From: Armatimonadota bacterium
GTDB lineage: Bacteria; Armatimonadota; Hebobacteria; CAIYQO01
Length of the DNA stretch: 64,000 bases
NCBI GenBank assembly: GCA_029553475.1
Contig: JAKPKV010000173.1
Span: 1-64,000 of the forward strand
Direction: 5' to 3'
Numbering within the stretch: the stretch's first letter is position 1; each line of letters begins with the position of its first letter. Positions 5,505 to 35,791 of this stretch are shown in pieces. A model generated the notes under the pieces. That model made no database searches. It was given only the letters and a program-made list of their open reading frames with translations, and was not told the origin of the DNA. The translations under genes and the position numbers were made by a program.

Positions 5505-5544
5505 GCGCCCGCTCCTCGCGACTTCCCACCGTGGCTCGACATGT

Positions 5545-5609
5545 CCTGGGACCGCCGGTGTCTCACCGGCATGTCTGTACTGTGCCGGTGAGACACCGGC
5601 GATCCCAGG
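5545..5609. repeat. Hairpin repeat between TPP riboswitch and thiC
   Basis: Inverted arms of 26 nt with one mismatch (5546-5571 and 5583-5608) and an 11-nt loop. Each arm contains the core CGCCGGTGTCTCACCGGCA, itself a small palindrome. A second, half copy of the same family lies at 16381-16429, so this is a dispersed REP-type repeat rather than part of the aptamer. It lies in the transcribed leader of thiC and should fold strongly in RNA. Confidence 0.8.
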
Positions 5610-5676
5610 GCCGGCGTTCAGGGTACGGGTTCGCCGCGCCGTCGAGGCCAACATCGCGAAAGGAGCGCACCGCCAC

Positions 5677-6999
5677 ATGTCACTACGCGCCGCGTGGGTG
5701 CGGGGCCGGTCCGGCGTCGTCACCCAACTGCAGTATGCCCGGCAGGGCATCATCACCGGGGAGATGGCGTTCGTCGCCGAACGCGAAGGACTCGCCCCCG
5801 AACTCATCCGCGATGAGCTGGCCGCCGGACGGCTGGTCATCCCCGCCAACATCAACCATCCGGAGCTGCATCCCGCCGCCATCGGCCAGGCCGTCACCTG
5901 CAAGATCAACGCGAATATCGGCACCTCCGCGCTCTCCAGCGGCATGGACGAGGAGCTGGAGAAGCTGCGCATCTGCCTGCGCTACGGCGCCGACGCGGTG
6001 ATGGACCTGTCCACCGGCGGCGAGATCATCGCCATCCGCGAGGCGATCGTGCGCCATGCCCCCATCCCCGTCGGCACGGTGCCGATCTATGAGGCGATGG
6101 ACGGCGTTGACGACGTGATCGCCCTCACCGCCGACGATTTGCTCGCCGTCATCGAAGGGCAGGCGAAGCAGGGCGTGGATTTCATGACGATCCACTGCGG
6201 CGTGCTGCGCGAGTTCCTGCCGCTCGTCGCGCCGCGGCTGACGAAGATCGTCTCGCGCGGCGGGGCGCTGATGGCGCAGTGGATGCGCCATCACGACCGG
6301 CAGAATCCGCTCTACGACCGCTTTGACGATATCCTCGAGATCTGCCGCCGCTACGACGTCACCCTGTCGCTGGGCGACGGCCTGCGGCCCGGCTGCCTGC
6401 ACGACGCCAGCGATGCCGCGCAGTTCGCCGAGCTGAAGGTGCTCGGTGAGCTGACGCGGCGCGCCTGGGCGCGGGACGTGCAAGTGATGATCGAAGGCCC
6501 CGGCCACGTGCCGATGGACCAGATTCGGCAGAACGTCGCGCTGCAGCAGGAGTTCTGCCACGGGGCGCCGTTCTACGTGCTGGGCCCGCTGGTCACCGAC
6601 ATCGCCCCCGGGTACGACCACATCACCGCCGCCATCGGCGGGGCGCTGGCCGCGCTGTACGGCGTGGCGATGATCTGCTACGTCACGCCGAAGGAGCACC
6701 TGGGCCTGCCGAACGCGGAGGACGTGCGCCAGGGGATCATCGCCACGCGCATCGCCGCCCACGCCGCCGACCTTGCCCGCGGCAAGTCGCGCGAGCGGGA
6801 TGACGCCATGGCCCGGGCGCGCTACGCCTTTGACTGGGAAGCGCAGTTCGCGCTCGCCCTCGACCCCGACCGCGCCCGCGCCTATCGCGCGGAGACACTG
6901 GGGCTCGATTGCCGCACGGAATACTGCTCCATGTGCGGCCCGAAATTCTGCTCCATGCGGCTGTCGAAGGCGCTGGAGGGCGACGGGGTGACGGGGTGA
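5677..6999 (+). CDS. thiC: Phosphomethylpyrimidine synthase ThiC
   Basis: Radical-SAM enzyme that rearranges aminoimidazole ribotide into 4-amino-5-hydroxymethyl-2-methylpyrimidine phosphate for thiamine. The start chosen is the ATG at 5677, with AAAGGAG at 5659-5665; the ORF is open further up but that part covers the riboswitch and a repeat. From there the protein is 440 aa, the usual length of the short ThiC form. It has [15 protein letters not shown] near the N-terminus, [35 protein letters not shown], and the C-terminal CSMCGPKFC, the CX2CX4C ligand set of its [4Fe-4S] cluster. It is monocistronic here; the next gene converges on it. Confidence 0.98.
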
Positions 7000-7173
7000 A
7001 GAGGTGAAAAGGTGAAGAGGTGAAAAGGTGACGGGGTGACACAGGCCCGAAGGGCCGGAAGATGCTAGCCGCGGGTGAAGCGACAGCGGAACCCGTGGGA
7101 CAGGCCGTAATATCCGTCGGAGCCCTGAAAGGGCGGCAGCGGAGTGAAGCACGCCAATCTCGAGCGCGGATGC
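7000..7173. repeat. Convergent intergenic region with tandem 8-mers and small hairpins
   Basis: Just after the thiC stop, about 6988-7039 is a run of GGTGAAAA / GGTGAAGA / GGTGACGG units of 8 nt. It is followed by hairpins GGCCC-gaa-GGGCC (about 7046-7058) and GCCCT-gaa-AGGGC (7122-7134), the latter of the common intergenic type. The region separates two genes that converge (thiC and the PHP gene). None of the hairpins has a T-tract, so I do not call an intrinsic terminator. Confidence 0.5.
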
Positions 7174-7968
7174 CTACAGCGGCACCGCAGACCGCTCCCG
7201 CCCGGCGAACCGCACGGTCGCGGTATACCCCGCCGCCTGCGCGAGGTCGCGGGCGCGCGCAAAATGGCTCGCCACCTGCGCGGGCGCGTGGGCGTCGGCG
7301 CTGATGACCAGCGGGATGCCGCGCCGGCGGGCGGCGCGCAGCAGCGCGAGCGACGGGTATTGTTCGCCGATGGGCTTGTCCCAGCCCGCGGTGTTCAGCT
7401 CGATGGCGGGCCCGCAGTCGGCGATGGCGTCCAGCAGGTCGGCGATGAGGCCGCTGAAATCGGCACGCGGCAGGAAGCCGAATTTCTTCGGCAGGTCCAG
7501 GTGACCGATGATATCGAAGGCGCGGGTTTCCACCGCCCGGCGCAGGTACGTCCAGTAGCGCCGCCACACCTCGTCGCGCTCGTCTTCATTCAGCGCTTCC
7601 CACGGCGCGGGCGCGGCGTCAAGCGGAAACCCGTCGGCGAAGTGCACCGAGCCGATGCGGTAGTCGAAGCGCTGCGCGGCCAGCGCCGCCAGCGTCTCCG
7701 CCTCCGTCTCCGGGAAATAATCCACTTCGATGCCCACGCGCACCGTCAGGTCATCCGTGGCCGCGGCGGCCTCCCACAGCGCGCGGACATACGCGCCGAG
7801 GAAATCGGGCGGCATCGCCCAGGAGACCGGCTCCCCGCCGGGCAGCAGCGCGTAGTGGTCGGACAGGCCGAATTCATCCAGCCTCGCCGCGCGCGCGCCA
7901 TCCAGCATCGCCGCCAGGGAGGCCGCGCCATCGCTCCAGGCCGTGTGGTTGTGGTAACTCACCCGCAT
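7174..7968 (-). CDS. PHP-domain phosphatase, histidinol-phosphatase (HisK/HisJ) type
   Basis: A 264-aa protein of the polymerase-and-histidinol-phosphatase superfamily, a metal-dependent phosphoesterase acting in the cytoplasm. The metal-binding series is visible: HNH at residues 6-8 with D13 (MRVSYHNHTAWSDGA), SDHYAL, GIEVDYF, GSVHF, IGHLD, and DAHAP near the C-terminus. Length and overall order match HisK-type histidinol-phosphatase of histidine synthesis, but PHP proteins are used for several phosphoesters and no his gene is adjacent. The ATG at 7968 is chosen because the conserved PHP N-terminus starts there; the open frame upstream is a shadow of the next gene. It lies 37 nt after the gene at 8006-9373 in the same direction. 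Confidence 0.85.
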   Translation of the reverse strand: MRVSYHNHTAWSDGAASLAAMLDGARAARLDEFGLSDHYALLPGGEPVSWAMPPDFLGAYVRALWEAAAATDDLTVRVGIEVDYFPETEAETLAALAAQRFDYRIGSVHFADGFPLDAAPAPWEALNEDERDEVWRRYWTYLRRAVETRAFDIIGHLDLPKKFGFLPRADFSGLIADLLDAIADCGPAIELNTAGWDKPIGEQYPSLALLRAARRRGIPLVISADAHAPAQVASHFARARDLAQAAGYTATVRFAGRERSAVPL

Positions 7969-8005
7969 AGAGCGCACCTTCGACGCCGGAGCGGGTATCC
8001 CCTGC

Positions 8006-9373
8006 CTACGCCGGCACCTCGATGCCCCGCCGCAGCACGTCGGTGGCGACGTCGCCGTACGAGCGCTCGTTGATGGACAGGCCGTAGCGGCTGGCGCGGC
8101 CATCCACCACCAGGCGCAGCGGGCGCGTGCGCGGCTCAGGCAGGCGCAGGTCAATGCGGCGGTCGCCGAAGGTGGGCAGCACCAGGCCGAAATCGGTGAG
8201 CGCCAGCACCTCTTCGTAATCCGGCAGCACGCACAGGTCGCCGAAGCGCGGGTAGAGAGCGGCATACACGCGCGACGCCTGTGCGGCGGGCAGCGCGGCC
8301 AGCGCGGCGCGGCCGCGGTGCGCATACTCGGTAATGCCGCTCAGGCGAAAGGCTTCCAACAGCAGGATGGGCATCCACGGCGCGACGGTCGCCCACGCCG
8401 GCCCCGCGCCCACCGCGCCCGGGGATGGGGCGCCCGGCATGGGGCGCAGGCACTGGTGCAGGCACAGGCGGTCCAGCCAGACCAGCGCGTCGTCCAGCAC
8501 CGCCCAGTCGCCCTCCGCCGCCAGCGACAGGCCGCGCAGCACGCCGGCGGCGATCTCCGCCGGCGTGCCTTCACGCAGAAAGGGCTGCCAGTCGCGCGCC
8601 GGTCCGCGGGCGGGCAGGGGGGGCAGGTCACCCGCCGCGGGCGCAAAGGCGGCCGGCGGAGCCGGCAGATCGGCGCGCGCGAGCAGCCGCGTGAGCTGCT
8701 GAAATCCGCGACCGATCAGCGCCCGCGCATCGAGCACCAGCAGGCTGGACAGGCAGCGCGCCGACGAGCCCGGCGCCAGCGTCAGCGCCTGCTCCATCCC
8801 GCCGCCATCATCGGCAAGGTGGCGCAGCTGGCCGTCCGCATGGGGGTCCGGATCGGGCAGCAGCGCGGCGAAGCAGTGCGTGTCCTGCGCGAAGGCGGCC
8901 GGAGACGTGGCCAGCGCCGCGCCGGTGATGGCCTCGGTCGGCCAGCGCAGCGTCGCTTCGGCCAGGCCGCCCGTGAGAAACCACCGCTGCGCCAGCGCGC
9001 CGCCGGGCGGCGCCGGGCCGGTCAACTCGATCCACTGCCGGCACCAAGCATGGTCGGCGCCGAGGAGCAGCGTCATCTCCAGCTCGGCGTCACCCAGCCG
9101 TCCCTGCAGCGTCACGCCCCGGGTGGCGCCCGCCTCAAGCACCGGCGCGAAGGCGTAGACCGCCGCGCCCTGCTCCGCGCCGCCGGCATCGCGCAGCAGC
9201 AGGTCCACCGCCGGCGCGCTCGCCAGCAGGGGGATCCAGTGCCCGTGGGCGTCCCGCGCGTCCAGCATCAGCGTTTGCGCCCCGGTTTCCCGGGTGATGC
9301 GCAGGCGCAGCAGGCCGTTGTCGCAGATTTCGCATTCCTGATGACCGCGACGTTCGCAGGTGGAAGCCGTCAT
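8006..9373 (-). CDS. Hypothetical protein
   Basis: A 455-aa protein I cannot assign. It has no signal peptide or membrane segment. The first 270 residues look beta-rich (alternating patterns such as ELEMTLLLGADHAWCRQWIELTG) and the rest is helical with a Trp/Leu-rich stretch; a carbohydrate-active or epimerase-like architecture is conceivable but not shown by any motif. The N-terminus contains four cysteines or histidines (CERRGHQECEIC), which might bind a metal. It precedes the PHP gene by 37 nt and is probably co-transcribed with it. The start at 9373 is the first ATG after a promoter-size gap. Confidence 0.7.
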   Translation of the reverse strand: MTASTCERRGHQECEICDNGLLRLRITRETGAQTLMLDARDAHGHWIPLLASAPAVDLLLRDAGGAEQGAAVYAFAPVLEAGATRGVTLQGRLGDAELEMTLLLGADHAWCRQWIELTGPAPPGGALAQRWFLTGGLAEATLRWPTEAITGAALATSPAAFAQDTHCFAALLPDPDPHADGQLRHLADDGGGMEQALTLAPGSSARCLSSLLVLDARALIGRGFQQLTRLLARADLPAPPAAFAPAAGDLPPLPARGPARDWQPFLREGTPAEIAAGVLRGLSLAAEGDWAVLDDALVWLDRLCLHQCLRPMPGAPSPGAVGAGPAWATVAPWMPILLLEAFRLSGITEYAHRGRAALAALPAAQASRVYAALYPRFGDLCVLPDYEEVLALTDFGLVLPTFGDRRIDLRLPEPRTRPLRLVVDGRASRYGLSINERSYGDVATDVLRRGIEVPA

Positions 9374-9520
9374 GATGTCCCCAACCTCTCCGCCGCTGGC
9401 AGGGCGACCGCGGCGTCACACCACGGATATTCCACAGTACCCGGCCTTTTCCCCATACCCCGCGCGATTTCACCGCTGGCCTTGCTCGATGGCGATGACG
9501 GGGAGCGCGGGGCCGGCAGG

Positions 9521-26486: not shown

Positions 26487-26975
26487 TTACGGGATATCCT
26501 CCACCGTAATCATGCCGTCCGGGCCGCTGCCGCGCAGCGCCGCCAGGTCCACCCCGCGCTCGCGGGCCAGCCGGCGGGCGGCGGGGGTGGCGCGCACCGG
26601 GCCGCCGGGGGCCGCCGGCGCGGCGGGGGCCGGCGCGGCGGCGGTGGCCTCGTGCAGGGCGGCCAGGCTGGCCTCCCGCTCGGCGGCCAGCCGGCGATTC
26701 TCCGCCGCCAGCTCCGCTAAGTTCTCTACCCGTTCTCCGGCGGAACCGATCACGCACAGCGTGGAATTGACGGGCACCACGCTTTTTTCCGCCGGCAGCC
26801 GCGCCAAGAGGACGCCGGCGGCCGGGCTCGCGAACTCGTAGGCCACCTTGTCGGTGATCAGCTCCGCCAGCGGCTGCCCCGCCGCCACGCCGTCGCCCTC
26901 GGCGACCAGCCAGCGGCCGAGGGTGGCCTCTTCCATCTCAGGATACAACGGGTCCAACGTCACGCTCTGCGCCAT
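26487..26975 (-). CDS. Stand-alone lipoyl domain plus E3-binding domain protein (no acyltransferase)
   Basis: A 162-aa protein built like the front half of a 2-oxoacid dehydrogenase E2. Residues 1-80 are a lipoyl/biotinyl domain with the modified Lys43 in ITDKVAYEF; residues 82-112 are a predicted charged helix or coiled coil; an Ala/Pro linker follows; residues 128-162 are a peripheral-subunit-binding domain (ATPAARRLARERGVDL, GSGPDGMITVEDI). The frame stops there, so the catalytic domain is absent. It might carry acyl or methylamine-type groups in trans, or scaffold E3. No E1, E3 or lipoate gene is adjacent. The ATG at 26975 is chosen from the domain start; it diverges from the giant gene at 27170. 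Confidence 0.85.
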   Translation of the reverse strand: MAQSVTLDPLYPEMEEATLGRWLVAEGDGVAAGQPLAELITDKVAYEFASPAAGVLLARLPAEKSVVPVNSTLCVIGSAGERVENLAELAAENRRLAAEREASLAALHEATAAAPAPAAPAAPGGPVRATPAARRLARERGVDLAALRGSGPDGMITVEDIP

Positions 26976-27169: not shown

Positions 27170-30100
27170 ATGACACACGCACGCGTACTGATGCTTTGTC
27201 TGTCGGTGCTGCTGGCGGCGCTGCTGCCGGCGCAGGAGCCGGTGACATTGACGTTCGACCGGCCGGAGGCCGCCGGCATCAGCGGATTCCGCGCGATGTG
27301 GGACACGCCGGTGGTCTGCGGCCCCGATGGCCTCACCAGGATCGTGGATAAGGGCCAGTTCGGCAAGGCGCCGTCGGCATACTGGTCGCCCGCGCAGCGC
27401 AAGGACGGCGAGCCGGGCGCCTACGTCTTCGACGCCATCCACCGCGGCCTGCTGGTGCGTTTCCCCGGCGCGGCGGCGGCGATCGCCGCCCAGCTTGGCA
27501 AGGGCTATGCCGTCAGCAAAGTCGAGCTGATCCTCCCCTTCAAGGACACCGAGTTCTGGCCGGACGGGTATGCCGACCCGTCCGGCATGTCCTTCATGGG
27601 CGACCGCTGGGTGAAGAATCCGCCGCAATGGCACGCGCTGGTCTGGGCGCTGCGCAAGCCCTGGGTGGCCGACCCCGAGCTCGGCCCCACCTTCAACGCC
27701 TACCTCAACGGCGCCGGCTACTGGGCGAAATTCGGCGCGCAGGACGAAAAGGCGGACCGTTTTCCGCAGCGCTTCGGCCCGGCGGAAGTGTCGCACAAGA
27801 ACGTCGAGGGCCGGGTGGACGTCACCGCCATGCTGACGAGCGCCGATTTCGCCCCCACCCTCGCGGCGCGCCTGCGCCAGCTGGAGTACAGCGGCTTTTT
27901 GGTGCGCAAGTGGGAGACCTACGACACCCGCTACAAGGACGGGTGGAACGGCTACGAATATGGCCCGGCCATCGGCGGGCGCGGCATCCTCATCCACGCG
28001 CCGAAGCTCGCGGTCACCTTCACCCCGGCGAAGGCGGAGAAACTGGACGCGAAAGCCCTGGCGTTCGACACCCGCGCCTACGCCGCCGGGCTGCGCGCGA
28101 AGGGCGGCGACGGCAAGCCGACGGCGGTGCTGCCCTCCCCCGAGGAGATCACGCGGCTGGCGGCGAAATACGGCCTGGCGCGCCCCGCGACGATGCCGGA
28201 CTGGCAGTGGCAGCGCGTGCAGGAGCTGGCCGCCGCCGACCCGAAGCATCCGGCCTTCCAGTATCCCACGGCCCCGGACGCCTACCATAAATGGCTGGAT
28301 GGGATCCTCAGCCAGCCCTACCGCAACTTCATCGGCCACCTCACCCCTTTCAGCGCCATCGAGGCGCTGCAATACGGCGAAAGCTGGCCGGCGCCGGTGC
28401 GCGAGCACATGGTGCGCTACTGGGACGCCTGGCTGATGCCCGGCCGCCCCGCCAGCGAGCTGGTGCACCCGCAGGGCATTCACGGCGACGATAACCAGAA
28501 ATACCTGGCGCGCACCGGCGACTGGCGCGGCAACACCAGCTTCTACCGCGCCGGCTACACCCGCGAGATGTCCACCATGAACTTCAACCACGTGGCGGTG
28601 ACGGGCGCGCTGCTGGGCGGGCGGCTCACCGGCATCACGGAAGCCATCGCTGACGGCCGCTTCGGTCTGGAAAACCTGCCGCTGCGCCTGTGGAGCTGGT
28701 ACGACGGCTCCACCCAGGAATCCATTGACCACTACTATCTCACCCTCACCATGCTGGCGCAGAAGGAGTTCGCCAACTGGGGGCCGGACGTCATTGACCG
28801 CATGATGGGCCGCAGCATGCTCACCAAGACGGTGGACGAGCTGACCGGCGCCTATCACCCCGGCCTGCGCCGCTTCATCGCCACCAGCGGGCGCACCGGC
28901 ATCGGCTACGTGCTGGCGATTCAGGACGGCACCAAGCACATCGTGCACACCCTCTCGCACAGCGGCGCTCTCACCGACCTCGGCAAGGCGACGACGGTGG
29001 GCGGCATGCCGGTGCTCGGCCACGACGGCCCGCCGGCGATGATCGCCGCGCAGGCGCTGGTCTCGCCCTTCGGCGATGACTGGACCGCCTACATGGTGGA
29101 TGAGAAGCCGCTGCCCTTCTACATCACCAACAGTTATAAACAGTGGGGCGGCTACGCCGCCACGCCGCTGCAGCGCCGCGCCTACATGGGCGTCAATTAC
29201 GGCGTGGCCAGCCAGGACGTGGTGCGCAACGAGACGGTGCCCTTCATGGCGCAGTGGCGGCGCGAGGCGAAGCAGGTGACCACCGCCGGCGAGCTGGGCA
29301 CGCTCATCGGCCGCTACGGCATCAATAAGACGAACCTGCTGGACAGCCTCTATCACGGCACCACGCAGTCCAACGCCAACGGCAGCGTGCATACCTACGG
29401 CAGCTACACCTACGCCATGCAGCACCAGAACAAGCTGCTCGTCTTCACCAGCCCGAACAAGGGGCTGAAGGCGGACGAATACCCCGGCACCTTCCCGGCG
29501 GAGGTGAAGAGCCTGCAGACCACGCTGGGGCTGATGAATTTCCAGGACAAGCCGACGTGGGAGATCCGCGTGGACGGCCAGCCGGTGACGGCCTACCCGG
29601 TGCGCGTGCGCGCCGGCCAGCAGATCGCCATCCGCGACGGGGTGACCTACCTCGGCATCACCCCGCTGCCCTCCACCGACCTGGGGCGCGCGGAGGAAGT
29701 GCTCATCACCAATGAGACCGGCCCGGAGGTGCTGATGCAGGGCGGCGGCAAGGCGAAGCCGGCGCTGCTCATCGAGCAGTATAACTTCAAGTCGGACGCC
29801 CCGATGCCGAAGGCACGGCAGGATTCCGACGAGGTGGCGCTGGCCTACGGCGGCTTCGCCATCGAGCTGGGCGACGAGAAGGAATACGGCTCCTTCGACC
29901 GCTTCCTCGCCCACCTGCGCGCCGCGAAGCTGGACGCGCAATGGGACGCGAACGCGAAGGTGCTGGGCGTCACCTGGCGCACCGGCGACGACACCATCGA
30001 GTGCGGCTTCAAGCCGGAGTACCAAGGCGGGCGGACGGACGCCTGCTTCCCCTACCGCCGCGTGAACGGCGCCTACGCCTACCTGCCGCCGGGGGTGGAG

Positions 30101-31126
30101 CGCGACAGCACCCTCACCGCCATGAGCCGCCTGGGGCGCATCGAGAAAAACGGCGCCGTCCTCACCAATGAGCCGGGCCGCATGGGCTACCTGCAGACGG
30201 AGCCGAACACCGGCACCTACGCCGGCCACAACCCGCTGCCGGATGCCACGCTCTGGTCGCTGGAAGCGCCCGGCGGGGTGAAGGTGGGCGCCGACGGGCG
30301 CCTGGGGCTGGCGCGGGTGGTGGTGCGCCCGCGGGAGAATCGGCTCTGGGTGGACTACGCGGCGAAGGCCGAGCAGAACAGCACAGACATGGCTACCGCG
30401 CTGGTGGTCTTCGGCCTGAAAGGGCAGCCGGGGGTGACGCGCAACGGCTTCCGCGTCACCGACGCCGTGCCCATGACGGTGGACGGCACGCCGGCCTGGG
30501 TGATCCCGCTGACGGAGGGGATGCCGAAGGCGGCGCTGCACCAGGTGCCCGCGCGCTACGCCCGCGCCCAGCAGGTCTTCACCATGACGGACCGGCCGGA
30601 TACCACCGCCCACATGATCCAGGACTGGCTGCTCGTCGGCCCCTTCGACAACGCGAAGGGGGCGGGCTTCGCGACCGCCTTCGGCCCGGAGCAGGACCAG
30701 ACGAAAGCGGCCTATCCCGGGCTGGGCGGGAAAGAGGTGGCGTGGGCGCGCGCGATCCGGCCGGGGCAGCCGGCGCTGGGCAAGGGCGCCGTCAACCTGC
30801 GCGGCCGCTTCGCCGGCGTGAATGACGACGCGACCGCCTACGCGCTGACGAAGATCACCGCGGACCGCGACCGCACCGTCACCCTCTTCACCGGCAGCGA
30901 CGACACCATCACCGCCTGGGTGAACGGGGAGCAGGTGCTGGCGAAGAACGTCTACCGCGGCGCCGCCCCCGATCAGGACCGCGCCGACATCCAGCTCAAG
31001 AAGGGCGAGAACGCGCTGCTGCTGAAGATCTGCCAGGGCACCGGCGGCTGGGAATTCTACGCCCGGCTGGGCGACGAATTCGGCCTGCCCGTCACCGACG
31101 GCATCACCTACGGCTTCGGACCGTAG
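27170..31126 (+). CDS. Giant secreted protein of unknown function with C-terminal jelly-roll-like domain
   Basis: A 1318-aa exported protein with a signal peptide (residues 1-20, MTHARVLMLCLSVLLAALLP). A beta-rich N-terminal part (to about residue 270) contains FRAMWDTP and GLLVRFPGAA. A helical middle part follows with TMNFNHVAVTGALLGG and LWSWYDGSTQESIDHYY, which has the look of an alpha/alpha catalytic core in a polysaccharide lyase or hydrolase, though I cannot name one. A second beta-rich part holds YLPPGVERDSTLTAM and LVVFGLKGQPG. The last 190 residues form an extra domain (DWLLVGPFDNAK, TAWVNGEQVL, LKKGENALLLKI) typical of carbohydrate-binding jelly rolls. A GAGGGGGGT ribosome site precedes the ATG. 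It is a paralogue of the next gene. Confidence 0.85.
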   Translation: MTHARVLMLCLSVLLAALLPAQEPVTLTFDRPEAAGISGFRAMWDTPVVCGPDGLTRIVDKGQFGKAPSAYWSPAQRKDGEPGAYVFDAIHRGLLVRFPGAAAAIAAQLGKGYAVSKVELILPFKDTEFWPDGYADPSGMSFMGDRWVKNPPQWHALVWALRKPWVADPELGPTFNAYLNGAGYWAKFGAQDEKADRFPQRFGPAEVSHKNVEGRVDVTAMLTSADFAPTLAARLRQLEYSGFLVRKWETYDTRYKDGWNGYEYGPAIGGRGILIHAPKLAVTFTPAKAEKLDAKALAFDTRAYAAGLRAKGGDGKPTAVLPSPEEITRLAAKYGLARPATMPDWQWQRVQELAAADPKHPAFQYPTAPDAYHKWLDGILSQPYRNFIGHLTPFSAIEALQYGESWPAPVREHMVRYWDAWLMPGRPASELVHPQGIHGDDNQKYLARTGDWRGNTSFYRAGYTREMSTMNFNHVAVTGALLGGRLTGITEAIADGRFGLENLPLRLWSWYDGSTQESIDHYYLTLTMLAQKEFANWGPDVIDRMMGRSMLTKTVDELTGAYHPGLRRFIATSGRTGIGYVLAIQDGTKHIVHTLSHSGALTDLGKATTVGGMPVLGHDGPPAMIAAQALVSPFGDDWTAYMVDEKPLPFYITNSYKQWGGYAATPLQRRAYMGVNYGVASQDVVRNETVPFMAQWRREAKQVTTAGELGTLIGRYGINKTNLLDSLYHGTTQSNANGSVHTYGSYTYAMQHQNKLLVFTSPNKGLKADEYPGTFPAEVKSLQTTLGLMNFQDKPTWEIRVDGQPVTAYPVRVRAGQQIAIRDGVTYLGITPLPSTDLGRAEEVLITNETGPEVLMQGGGKAKPALLIEQYNFKSDAPMPKARQDSDEVALAYGGFAIELGDEKEYGSFDRFLAHLRAAKLDAQWDANAKVLGVTWRTGDDTIECGFKPEYQGGRTDACFPYRRVNGAYAYLPPGVERDSTLTAMSRLGRIEKNGAVLTNEPGRMGYLQTEPNTGTYAGHNPLPDATLWSLEAPGGVKVGADGRLGLARVVVRPRENRLWVDYAAKAEQNSTDMATALVVFGLKGQPGVTRNGFRVTDAVPMTVDGTPAWVIPLTEGMPKAALHQVPARYARAQQVFTMTDRPDTTAHMIQDWLLVGPFDNAKGAGFATAFGPEQDQTKAAYPGLGGKEVAWARAIRPGQPALGKGAVNLRGRFAGVNDDATAYALTKITADRDRTVTLFTGSDDTITAWVNGEQVLAKNVYRGAAPDQDRADIQLKKGENALLLKICQGTGGWEFYARLGDEFGLPVTDGITYGFGP

Positions 31127-31180
31127 GCACGAGCCGTACCACGGCATGGACGGTCGCGCGTGCAGCCGTCGGAGGGTATG

Positions 31181-34100
31181 ATGCGACACCTGCGCTCGTG
31201 TGCACTACTGCTGCTGCCGCTGCTGGCGCTGTACGGCGCGGAGCCCGTCGTCCTCACGCTGCCGGCGGTGGAGACGGCCGGCATCAATGGTTTTCGCGCG
31301 CACTGGGACCGCCCGCAGCCGGACGCGCTGGTCTTTGACGCCGTGCATCGCGGCCTGCTCGTGCGCTTCCCCGGCGCCGCCGAGCAGATTGCCGCGCAGT
31401 TGGCGAAAGGCTATCGCCTCGAAAAAGCGGAGCTCATCCTGCCGTTCAAAGACACCGAATTGCTCATCGGCAACGCTGGCTACCACCAGCGGCTCAGTTT
31501 CGGCGCGCATGAGCTCTACCAGCGGTTGCTCCCCCAGTGGCATGCCGTCGGCTGGGCGCTGCGCAAACCATGGACGGCGCACAAGGAGAGCGGACCGACG
31601 TATAACGCCTACCTCAATAGCGCCGGCTACTGGGCCACCTACGGCGCGCAGGATCCGCACACGGACCGTTTTCCCCGGCAGTTCGGACCGGTAGAGGTGT
31701 CGGCGGGCGCCGCGCCGCCACCGCGCGCGATACCTGACCCGAATGATCCTGAAAATAAGGGGGTCATGGATGCCGCGCGCCCGAAACGCGAGCCGGTGCA
31801 TGGCCGCATGGATATCACCGCCACCCTGACGGAGCCTCTCTACGGCGCCACGCCGGGCGCGCGCCTGCGGCGGCTGGAAGAATGCGGCTTCCTGCTGCGC
31901 AAGTGGGAGGTGTATGACTGGCGGTTCCGCGAGTCCGGTCAGGGCGCGTATGAGTGGGCGGTGGCCACCGGCGGGCGCGGCATCATCATCAACCCCCCGC
32001 AGCTGGAAGTCACGTTCGTCCCCGCTAGGCCGGAGACGGTCACGCTGCCCCCGTCCACCGACCTGGCGGCCCTCGCGAAGACGCTGGCCGACACCGGCGC
32101 CGGCGGCGCCCCCACCGCGGTAGTGCCCGATGCCGACGGCCTGCGTGCCATCCTCGAGGGGCTGACCCAGCGCCAGCCCGCCTGGATGCCGGACTGGCAG
32201 TGGGCGCGGGTGCGGGAGCTGCAGGCGCACGGCGGCTTCGGGGTGCCCGATACCCCGGAGGCGTACGGGCGATGGCTTGACGAGATGCTGGCCGACCCCC
32301 CGCGCTACTGGAACGGCTGGGACGTGCCCGACCGTCTGCTGCTCTGGTATATGTATGGCGATGCCATGCCTGAGCCGGTGCGCCAGCACTGGCGCAGCTA
32401 CTGGGACGCCTGGCTGCTGCCCGACCGCAAGACCAGCGAGTTCGTGCATCCGCAGGCCGTCGAACTCTGGTACAAAGGCCGTAATAAGTATTATGAAGAT
32501 ACCGGCGACTGGCGCGGCAATGCCAGTTTCTATCGCGATGGCTATTGCTATGCCATGTCTACGATGAACTTCAATCATACCGCGGCGATGGGCGCGCTGC
32601 TCGGCGGGAACATCATCGGCGCGGAATACGCCATGGCGGACGGACGCCACGGGCTGGAACATTTCCCCCTGCGCCTGTGGGCCTGGTATGACGGCTCCAC
32701 CCAGGAGTCTATTGACCACTACTATTTCGCGATCACGGTCAGCGACCAGAAGGTCTTCGCCGACTTCGGCCCCACCCATTTTGACCGCATGCTGGGTCGC
32801 AGCATGCTGGCGAAATCCATGGAGGAGCTGACCACCGCCTACCACCCCGGCCTGCGCCGCTTCCTCAGCACCTCCAGCCGCACCACCCTCGGCCACGTCT
32901 TCCTCACCCAGGAAGGTTTGCAGCACGTGATGCACACCCTCTCGCGCCAGGGCGCGCTGCACGATGCCGACCGCGGCACCGTGCAGGGCATGGAGGTCTT
33001 CGGGCATAACGTGCCGCCCGCGCGCGTGGCCCAGCAAACGATGACCGGGCCGTGGGCGCCGGAATGGGTCTCCCATATCGTGGACGACAAGCCGCTGCCT
33101 TTCCAGATGACCGCGGCCTACAAGCAGTGGGGGGCATATGCGAAAAATCCGCTGTGGAAGCGCACCTACCTGGGCCGCCATTACGGCATCGGCACCCAGG
33201 ACATCTGCGGCAGCCCCACGCCGGTGATGGCCTACTGGCGCCGTCAGGATACTCCGGTGGAGCGCCTGGAGGACTGCGTCACGCTGCTGGCACGGCCGGG
33301 CATCAACACCACCAACCTCATCACCACCGACGGCGGCGGGCTGGATCCGCAGGGCGGCCTCGGGACGCTGCACCACCGGAATACCGTGCTGATGGTCACC
33401 AGTCCGTACCGGCAAAACAGCCATGAGAAGATCACCAGCCTGCAGACGACGCTCGGGCTCTTCAATTTTCAGCCGACACCGACCTGGGAGATCTATCTCG
33501 ACGGCGCGCGGGTGACGCAATTCCCCGCCGCCGCGCAGCACAGTCAGCGCATCATCATCCGGGATGGGGTGAGCTACCTGGCCGTCATCCCCATCCCCGC
33601 GACCGACCTGGGTCGCATTGACGAGGTGCGCCTGACCACCGACAATCCGAAGGCGAAGCTGGACGTGAAGCACGACGCCGCGGTCGCGCCCGCGCTGCTG
33701 ATCGAATCCTTCAACCTTCGCCGGCCGCCGGTGACGAACGAGAAACCCGGCGACGACCCGGAAGAAGGGATGATGGGCGACATTGCCCCGCTGCCCGAGG
33801 GATATTATGAGATCAAGGAGCGGGTGGAGAAGTTCTGGGCCGGGCACGACCAGGCATACGGCGGCTTCGCGCTGGAGTTCGGCGATGTGAGCGAGTTTCC
33901 GACCCTGGCCGACTTCCAGCGGCATATCGCGGCGGCGAAGCTGGATGTCCGCTTCGAGAAGACGACGAATGTGGTGACGGTGACCTACGCCAGCGGCGGC
34001 GACACGCTGGTCGCCGGCTTTGACACCGTGCGCCACCAGTTCACGACACGGACCGTCAACGGCGCCTGGCCCTACTTGCCGGAGGGATTGGAGCGCGACA

Positions 34101-34567
34101 GCACCCTCACCCAGCAGGGCCGCACCGGCCGGCTGGAGAAAAACGGCGCCGTGCTCACCCATGAGCCGGGCCGCGTGGCCTACCTGCAGACGGAGCCCAT
34201 CACCGGCACCTACGCCGGCTTCAATCCGCTGCCGGACGCGCAGCGCTGGGCGCTGGAGGCGCCGGGCGGCGTGACAGTCAGCGCCGACGGCCGGCTGGGG
34301 TTGGCGCGCGTCATGCTGCGGCCGAAGGCGAACAGGGTCTGGGTGGATTACGCGGCCAAAGACGATCAGCACGGCGCCGAGATGGCCACCGCGCTGGTGG
34401 TGTTCGGGCTGCAAGGACAGCCGACGATTGAGCGCAACGGCGCCCGCGTGGCCGATGCCGTCGCGATGACGGTGGACGGCAAGCCGGCGTGGGTGATTCC
34501 GCTGCGCGAGGGGATGACGCAGGAGGCGCTGGCCGCCGTGCCCGCGCGTTACCGCCGTGCCCAGTAG
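31181..34567 (+). CDS. Giant secreted protein, paralogue of the preceding gene without its C-terminal domain
   Basis: A 1128-aa exported protein with a signal peptide (residues 1-17). It is similar to the preceding protein along almost its full length; the best-conserved part is STMNFNH, LRLWAWYDGSTQESIDHYY, GRSMLAKS and TAYHPGLRRF. Relative to the first it lacks about 30 residues near the N-terminus, has a 20-residue insertion near residue 185, and ends in VPARYRRAQ where the first reads VPARYARAQQVF and continues for 190 residues. ATGs at 31178 and 31181 compete; GGAGGG at 31171-31176 suits 31181. It starts 54 nt after the first gene, so the pair is probably one operon. The last 19 nt overlap the convergent URO-D gene. 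Confidence 0.85.
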   Translation: MRHLRSCALLLLPLLALYGAEPVVLTLPAVETAGINGFRAHWDRPQPDALVFDAVHRGLLVRFPGAAEQIAAQLAKGYRLEKAELILPFKDTELLIGNAGYHQRLSFGAHELYQRLLPQWHAVGWALRKPWTAHKESGPTYNAYLNSAGYWATYGAQDPHTDRFPRQFGPVEVSAGAAPPPRAIPDPNDPENKGVMDAARPKREPVHGRMDITATLTEPLYGATPGARLRRLEECGFLLRKWEVYDWRFRESGQGAYEWAVATGGRGIIINPPQLEVTFVPARPETVTLPPSTDLAALAKTLADTGAGGAPTAVVPDADGLRAILEGLTQRQPAWMPDWQWARVRELQAHGGFGVPDTPEAYGRWLDEMLADPPRYWNGWDVPDRLLLWYMYGDAMPEPVRQHWRSYWDAWLLPDRKTSEFVHPQAVELWYKGRNKYYEDTGDWRGNASFYRDGYCYAMSTMNFNHTAAMGALLGGNIIGAEYAMADGRHGLEHFPLRLWAWYDGSTQESIDHYYFAITVSDQKVFADFGPTHFDRMLGRSMLAKSMEELTTAYHPGLRRFLSTSSRTTLGHVFLTQEGLQHVMHTLSRQGALHDADRGTVQGMEVFGHNVPPARVAQQTMTGPWAPEWVSHIVDDKPLPFQMTAAYKQWGAYAKNPLWKRTYLGRHYGIGTQDICGSPTPVMAYWRRQDTPVERLEDCVTLLARPGINTTNLITTDGGGLDPQGGLGTLHHRNTVLMVTSPYRQNSHEKITSLQTTLGLFNFQPTPTWEIYLDGARVTQFPAAAQHSQRIIIRDGVSYLAVIPIPATDLGRIDEVRLTTDNPKAKLDVKHDAAVAPALLIESFNLRRPPVTNEKPGDDPEEGMMGDIAPLPEGYYEIKERVEKFWAGHDQAYGGFALEFGDVSEFPTLADFQRHIAAAKLDVRFEKTTNVVTVTYASGGDTLVAGFDTVRHQFTTRTVNGAWPYLPEGLERDSTLTQQGRTGRLEKNGAVLTHEPGRVAYLQTEPITGTYAGFNPLPDAQRWALEAPGGVTVSADGRLGLARVMLRPKANRVWVDYAAKDDQHGAEMATALVVFGLQGQPTIERNGARVADAVAMTVDGKPAWVIPLREGMTQEALAAVPARYRRAQ

Positions 34568-35676
34568 TCGTCCAGCCGCCGGTGCAGCGCCGTGATGCGT
34601 GCGGTATCCGCTGTCTTCCAGTACATGCCGGTGTAGGCAAACAGCAGGCGGGGATTCGTGTTCGCGCGGTCGAGATCGCGGCGGACGATCGCCTCGGCGG
34701 CGTCGAAATCCTCCGGCAGCTCCTGGCCGATGGCGAGGATGATGGGGCGGTCGCCGATCTCCGCCAGCGCGTCGTCCACGCTGATGGCCCCCGCCGCCGT
34801 CTTCTCGATGAAGCCCGCCTCCTGATACACCACGTTCGGCAGGTTGCGCATGGTGGCGTAGAAGACATGCGGGCCGCTGCAGGGGTGGATGGCGACCTGC
34901 CCGAACCGCTCCGCGATGCGGCGGTCGTGCGGCAGCACGTGCTCCAGATACATCGCCGGCGACAGCATATTCACCGAGCACTCGGCGATGCGGGCGCTGA
35001 CGCCGGGGAAGCGCGGGAAGCGCTCCGGGCCGATCCAGCGCTCCAACTGCTCGCGCACGGCGATGAAGAAGTCGGTGATGATGGTCATCAGCGCGGCGAA
35101 TTGCTCCGGCTCTTCATACGGGGCGAGGAAGGCGTCCGCGCCGAGGATCATGTGGGCGATGTTGAACGGCCCCTGCATGTCGGGGAGATTGATCTCGATC
35201 CACTCCGGGGTGAGCGCCTTCGCCGCCTCGATCGTCGCCCGCATCTCCGGGATGATGCCGCTCGTCTCCGGGTCGGGCATGCCCTCCGCCAGCACCGCCG
35301 CCAGCGGGCGGCTGCCCTTCGGCGTGTAGCCCAGTCCCGCGTCCAGCGCGATGCCGAAGGAGGCGGGCAGCGTGCCGGTGCCCTTGCCCAGGTTCAGCCG
35401 CGGGCGGATGGGGTTGTGCATCGGCAGCCCCCCGGTCATGCCGCGAATGGCGTCGAGCAGGCTGGCGTCCGCCGGTTTGGGCGCCGTCGGCTCCGTGCGC
35501 TCCATCACCTCGCCGGCGCCGATGTCCGGCCCGCGTCCCAGGTAGATGACCGGGTATGGGCGCGGCTCTCCACGCAGCACGTACGCCTCCGCGAGATCCA
35601 TCCGCCGCTCCGGATGGGCCGCCAGCGTCTCCGCCAGCTCCGCCACCGCGCGGGCGATGTCGTCGGTCATGCTCAT
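34549..35676 (-). CDS. Uroporphyrinogen decarboxylase (URO-D)-superfamily protein
   Basis: A 375-aa TIM-barrel protein of the URO-D/MtaA superfamily. It is not the classical HemE: it lacks the N-terminal RQAGR-type substrate loop, and resembles the abundant URO-D paralogues of unknown substrate in Armatimonadota, Planctomycetota and anaerobes, some of which are methyltransferases. Visible features include WIEINLPDMQGPFNIAHMIL and IHPCSGPHVF, the latter in the place of the zinc-binding HXC of methyltransferases. The start at 35676 follows GGGGGAG at a fair distance; 35679 and 35670 are also possible. Its stop lies inside the end of the convergent giant gene. Confidence 0.82.
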   Translation of the reverse strand: MSMTDDIARAVAELAETLAAHPERRMDLAEAYVLRGEPRPYPVIYLGRGPDIGAGEVMERTEPTAPKPADASLLDAIRGMTGGLPMHNPIRPRLNLGKGTGTLPASFGIALDAGLGYTPKGSRPLAAVLAEGMPDPETSGIIPEMRATIEAAKALTPEWIEINLPDMQGPFNIAHMILGADAFLAPYEEPEQFAALMTIITDFFIAVREQLERWIGPERFPRFPGVSARIAECSVNMLSPAMYLEHVLPHDRRIAERFGQVAIHPCSGPHVFYATMRNLPNVVYQEAGFIEKTAAGAISVDDALAEIGDRPIILAIGQELPEDFDAAEAIVRRDLDRANTNPRLLFAYTGMYWKTADTARITALHRRLDDYWARR

Positions 35677-35791
35677 CATGCTCCCCCTGCCGGGGGAGGA
35701 TTCGCGCCCGGCGGACGGGTCTCCTGCTCGCGGAGAAAAGCGGGAGCGCAATCTGGTGCATCGCCCGGCTGACGCCGCCCCCGCCGCCGGC

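Follow-up and report, generated by a model that had tools for sequence, protein, structure and literature searches.

What are the two giant secreted proteins encoded side by side in this stretch of an Armatimonadota contig, and why does one carry a C-terminal domain that its neighbor lacks? Within the window (the whole 64,000-nucleotide stretch that was analyzed), P1 (positions 27170 to 31126, plus strand) is an open frame for a long form of 1318 aa, and the family profile match spans its entire body. P2 (31181 to 34567, plus strand) is an open frame for a short form of 1128 aa, with an alternative ATG one codon upstream, at 31178. Read by eye, both N termini are hydrophobic and resemble signal peptides. 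The 54-bp gap between the genes (31127 to 31180, plus strand) contains a ribosome-binding-like GGAGGG at 31171 to 31176, which suggests that P1 and P2 are cotranscribed. P1 and P2 are 54% identical over 1067 aligned residues, and their alignment runs to VPARYARAQ in P1 and VPARYRRAQ in P2. The first-pass annotation had described two neighboring secreted paralogues that are alike up to VPARYxRAQ, where the first runs on and the second halts. Frames and alignment bear this out, and the border codons read as it claimed: GCC CAG CAG GTC in P1 and GCC CAG TAG TCG in P2. The overlap that it reported between the end of P2 and a convergent URO-D family gene (34549 to 35679, minus strand; the longer frame starts at 35751) is also there and amounts to 19 bp (34549 to 34567), with the P2 TAG at 34565 to 34567. 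Divergent beside P1 lies a gene (26490 to 26975, minus strand) for a 162-aa protein with lipoyl and E3-binding domains and without an acyltransferase domain.

The P1 and P2 frames are not chance products, since a sequence search found about nine further family members in the same 5.27-Mb genome and more across several phyla. G001, a genome of the same genus, has a corresponding set, and only 10 of the 291 genomes in the phylum gave a match to the family, with further relatives in Planctomycetota, Verrucomicrobiota, and Lentisphaerota; most of the genomes compared are metagenome assemblies. One genome, G292, has about 10 members of its own, and the family has expanded to about 10 copies per genome. 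Neither P1 and P2 nor the other members gave a convincing match in Pfam, and searches of the members against NCBIfam and PDB sequences gave no convincing and no credible match, respectively; lone sub-threshold hits to DUF5703, CARDB, and cystathionine beta-synthase were treated as chance. A check for plasmid origin gave no match, and there was no viral relative below 1e-3 (ODV-E66 was a weak match only), and we found no description in the literature of the family or of Armatimonadota lyases. Distant relatives of about 700 aa are frequent in the phylum of G292 (hhalign probability of 100 over 540 columns). These proteins form a large group (L120, L128-L137, L104, and L152, frames of about 620 to 960 aa) that has an SEFNSxTY motif and no Pfam or NCBIfam model. 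At five family loci, the neighbors are CAZyme-like (GH123, GH39, GH42, RHGA/pectate-lyase-like, and GH2); no CAZyme gene adjoins the P1/P2 locus. Neighboring pairs of family members occur in other genomes too (L034, L035, and L037), and giant proteins without a Pfam match lie beside family members at L064:9587-13189 (1201 aa) and L065:11490-14888 (1133 aa).

The predicted structure gave a first indication of function. An AlphaFold2 model of P2, built with 37 family rows as input, had a pLDDT of 87.3 and a pTM of 0.88. In the model, an N-terminal beta-rich domain (about residues 20 to 285; 31238 to 32035, plus strand) is followed by a helical, (alpha/alpha)-toroid-like domain (about residues 295 to 640; 32063 to 33100, plus strand) that contains LWAWYDGSTQESIDHYY and then by two beta regions, modeled as beta-sandwich domains (about residues 641 to 850 and 890 to 1110; 33101 to 34510, plus strand). 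The top match of P2 in a Foldseek search of the PDB was the PL8 chondroitin AC lyase 1cb8 (E value, 2.8e-5; probability, 1.00), followed among the lyases by other PL8 enzymes and by PL17, PL33, and PL12. Toroid-type polysaccharide lyases accounted for five of the six matches below 1e-3 and for almost every one of the top 30. The (alpha/alpha)-toroid plus antiparallel beta-sandwich fold of PL8 is thus recognizable in P2, with TM-scores of 0.22/0.33 against 1cb8. Global TM-scores were low (0.22 to 0.25) and rmsd values were large, which indicates similarity of fold class rather than close kinship and a domain packing that differs from that of the lyases. At the sequence level, none of 37 members matched the Lyase_8 Pfam models at an E value of 0.01, and hhalign against PF08124 (PL8) relatives gave a probability of 0.2%. 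The Hepar_II_III Pfam model gave no match, and hhalign against Hepar relatives gave 0.8%; PL8 compared with Hepar itself gives just 8%. The hhalign comparison with PL8 and Hepar relatives was uninformative. A weak Hepar-type alignment pairs the Asn region and a DG..E..Y loop.

Column counts within the family point to a candidate active-site stretch in P2 (32567 to 32881, plus strand). Within it, Asn463, Glu509, Tyr515, His555, and Arg567 show no variation in any of the 36 rows covering these positions. Asn463 and Tyr515 are 52 residues apart. In toroid lyases, the carboxylate-neutralizing Asn lies 53 to 63 residues before the catalytic Tyr (PMC12088678), a range computed for PL8, 12, 15, 17, 23, 35, and 39 from the residues in table 4 of that paper. 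From the PL8-type Asn/His/Tyr/Arg set, Asn463, Tyr515, and Arg567 are invariant and similarly spaced; the placement of His differs. The heparinase- and alginate-lyase-like families (PL12, 15, 17, 21, 35, and 39) combine Asn and Tyr in the toroid with a His in the beta domain; here the Asn and Tyr are invariant, and the column counts show no invariant His after residue 585 and none in the beta domain. The distant relatives of about 700 aa retain the Asn, Glu, and Tyr and lack the DGS loop. From the model, the fold matches, and these residues, the family is lyase-like in fold and probably in mechanism and is not a member of any of the polysaccharide lyase families tested. The earlier proposal of an enzyme from a family without a name stands as far as the Pfam, NCBIfam, and PDB sequence searches go, and the fold now suggests a polysaccharide lyase. 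We infer that the likeliest activity would be beta-elimination that depolymerizes an acidic (uronate-containing) polysaccharide, in which Asn463 would neutralize the carboxylate, Tyr515 would act as base/acid, and His555 and Arg567 would assist.

A possible but unlikely alternative is that the toroid plus beta-sandwich fold serves a glycoside hydrolase or other carbohydrate-active enzyme, with His555, Glu509, or Asp512 as the catalytic residue. The remaining match of the six below 1e-3 is in fact a GH127 enzyme (7exu), Glu509 and His555 are invariant, and the neighbors at the family loci are mostly hydrolases. However, lyases make up the other five matches and the greater part of the top 30, and the spacing of the invariant Asn, Tyr, and Arg is like that of polysaccharide lyases.

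The segment found only in P1 (30572 to 31123, plus strand) was delimited by module alignment, AlphaFold2, and Foldseek and consists of a linker and about 170 residues, 190 extra residues in all. The first-pass annotation had called it jelly-roll-like, and the model agrees: it is beta-rich (pLDDT, 82.5), and Foldseek places it closest to PA14-type lectins, CBM35, and GH2 sugar-binding domains, with 54 PDB matches at an E value of ≤0.001, mostly to sugar-binding domains. The same C-module terminates GH66-like proteins and one GH2 protein and is found on TIGR03790 proteins and on one serine-hydrolase-like protein, which marks it as a mobile accessory module. Three of the carriers (L210:707-3577, L211:1335-4235, and L216:1465-4563) resemble GH66/endo-dextranases by weak matches. 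Judging from the modeled fold, the module presumably binds a glycan and, if present, would hold the enzyme on it.

Long and short forms are both widespread in the family. Counting the 43 rows whose end is known, the long form occurs in 17, the short form in 23, and a duplicated last beta domain instead of the C-module in 3; well-supported branches force at least seven changes of the long state. Form does not differ between orthologues of the window genome and G001, whether long (L060/L068, L062/L074, and L065/L075), short (L061/L073 and L064/L072), or duplicated (L063/L071), so each form is fixed; the question raised in the first-pass annotation, whether both the long and the short form are fixed in related genomes, is thereby answered. 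The form with the doubled last beta domain, a third architecture, occurs at L063:5799-9740, L071:87-4085, and L105:1003-4920. The 3′ ends of the family are evolutionarily labile.

The bodies and tails of the pair have different relatives. For residues up to 980, a clade of P1 and P2 was rejected (AU p = 1.1e-4), as was one of P1, P2, and L079 (p = 1.6e-5), p-values that are somewhat optimistic because the groups were defined with the trees already in view. In this region, P1 falls in a clade (support, 100/98) drawn from other genomes and excluding P2, which comprises the short forms L078, L083, and L037, the long form L034, and duplicated forms; P2 groups with long-form proteins and, its orthologue aside, is nearest to the long form L079. 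At residue 987, the identity between P1 and P2 jumps from 35 to 57% to 68 to 80%. The last 148 body residues of P1 (about residues 987 to 1134; 30128 to 30571, plus strand) group with P2 and L079 (74 and 71% identity, respectively, versus 57 to 64% to L078 and L083). For this tail, placement of P1 with its own body clade was rejected (AU p of about 0.0035 to 0.017, again somewhat optimistic). The P1 module most resembles the L079 module (64%; support of 97/93 in one tree and 84/78 in another), and grouping it with L034 instead was not firmly rejected by the module phylogeny alone (AU p = 0.064). The L079 module (G290:C104) is split over two frames, 5510-5977 and 5788-9426, by a possible frameshift or assembly error; it was read across this one-frame shift (sequencing error or real lesion), and the pieces were joined only for the module tree. 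From these sequence comparisons, P1 is probably a mosaic with an exchanged tail, having probably acquired that tail and, less firmly, its C-module from the P2/L079 lineage, a direction of transfer that we infer.

It is quite unlikely that the similarity of the tails reflects stronger constraint rather than exchange, with the P1 module inherited vertically and lost from L078 and L083. The tail is somewhat more conserved against L083 as well (64% versus 54 to 64% in other segments), and the module tree alone is just moderately supported. Against this, it is the order of relatives that shifts and not just the rate: P2 and L079 pass L083 and L078 in the tail only, and there the AU tests reject P1 with its body clade.

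Why, then, does P2 stop at the domain border? The convergent gene was identified as URO-D by PF01208 (E value, 6.5e-6) and has orthologues in G001, G002, and G043; its stop codon, TAA, lies at 34549 to 34551 on the minus strand. The P2 TAG is the antisense of the URO-D codons GAC TAC TGG (D-Y-W), and the C-terminal RLDDYW is common to the orthologues in G001 and G002. The stop being antisense to conserved URO-D codons, P2 was probably ended by juxtaposition and not by a point mutation, and the likeness of CAG CAG to CAG TAG does not imply a nonsense change. G001 also has the RAQ-stop-URO-D junction, which is therefore older than the split of the two species. The P2 frame thus enters the convergent URO-D gene and meets a stop immediately, and we propose that P2 lost or lacks the C-module for this reason. 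Stop codon read-through in P2 was rejected, as nothing downstream of the TAG is module-like. The earlier description of P2 as cut by a stop codon thus holds for the TAG at the border but not for a CAG-to-TAG nonsense change.

The first-pass annotation had explained the pair as a duplication in which one copy lost its domain. The paralogy and the presence of the module on P1 only are confirmed; a local duplication is not. A single local duplication, after which a nonsense change or truncation stripped the module from P2, is improbable: the genes are adjacent and similar end to end, CAG faces TAG at the border, and L079, the nearest relative of P2, carries the module, but the sisterhood of P1 and P2 is rejected up to residue 980, the TAG belongs to antisense URO-D sequence that orthologues conserve, and no remnant of the module follows P2. 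The duplication step is largely refuted, and loss of the module within the P2 lineage itself is likely; loss by one copy is too simple an account, as the P1 tail and, less firmly, its module belong with the P2/L079 lineage.

Comparison with the sister species gave dN/dS values of 0.14 for P1 and 0.10 for P2 (over most of its length), so neither gene is a recent wreck, and both the long and the short form are under purifying selection. That P2 is decaying and P1 is the sole functional gene is very improbable: P2 has no module and directly adjoins another gene, but its dN/dS is low, every candidate catalytic residue is intact, and the family has many full-length short forms. In G001, contig C34 is P1-like up to about codon 1092 and P2-like beyond it, joining a P1 body to a P2 3′ end and URO-D (L069), and contig C453 carries the missing piece, with the P1 module end and most of P2 (L031/L009). 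This may be a tail exchange in a living population or an assembly collapse or chimera. Independent truncation of the G001 P1 orthologue was rejected as evidence, C34 being a recombinant or assembly chimera with the rest on C453.

Taken as a whole, the reading that we favor, at a probability of roughly 55%, is a lyase-fold family, so far undescribed, whose PA14/CBM35-like C-module is interchangeable and in which P1 is a recombinant with a P2-lineage tail. The architecture would comprise a signal peptide, an N-terminal beta domain, an (alpha/alpha)-toroid, beta-sandwich domains, and an optional C-module, and the last ~148 body residues of P1, probably with its C-module, would come from the P2 lineage. 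Tentatively, at slightly short of even odds, this may be a new polysaccharide lyase family with about 10 members in single genomes and representatives in several phyla. Shuffling of 3′ ends between its neighboring genes would then trade the glycan-binding module, remove it, or put a duplicated beta domain in its place. If the activity is as proposed, a family of acidic-polysaccharide enzymes, of which genomes from poorly cultured phyla carry several copies each, has been wholly missed by automatic annotation. The pair would also be a concrete case of modules that move between adjacent paralogues via tail exchange rather than whole-gene duplication.

Among known systems, the closest resemblance is to PL8 (1cb8 and 2wda; also the ABC lyases), which shares the toroid followed by a beta-sandwich and a similar order and spacing of Asn, Tyr, and Arg. 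Unlike PL8, the family has an extra N-terminal beta domain and no PL8-type His-x8-Tyr pair after DGS, and it shows no detectable sequence similarity and a low global TM-score. The heparinase-like and alginate lyases of PL12/15/17/35/39 are of the same fold class, with Asn and Tyr 53 to 57 residues apart, and the DG..E....Y loop resembles that of Hepar_II_III relatives in a weak alignment; these enzymes have a beta-domain His, whereas the family has no invariant one, and PF07940 and all other models miss the family. As for the optional C-module, the one on P1 is missed by Pfam and its glycan ligand is putative, but it is like the PA14, CBM35, and GH2 jelly rolls in its fold and in its place at the end of secreted enzymes.
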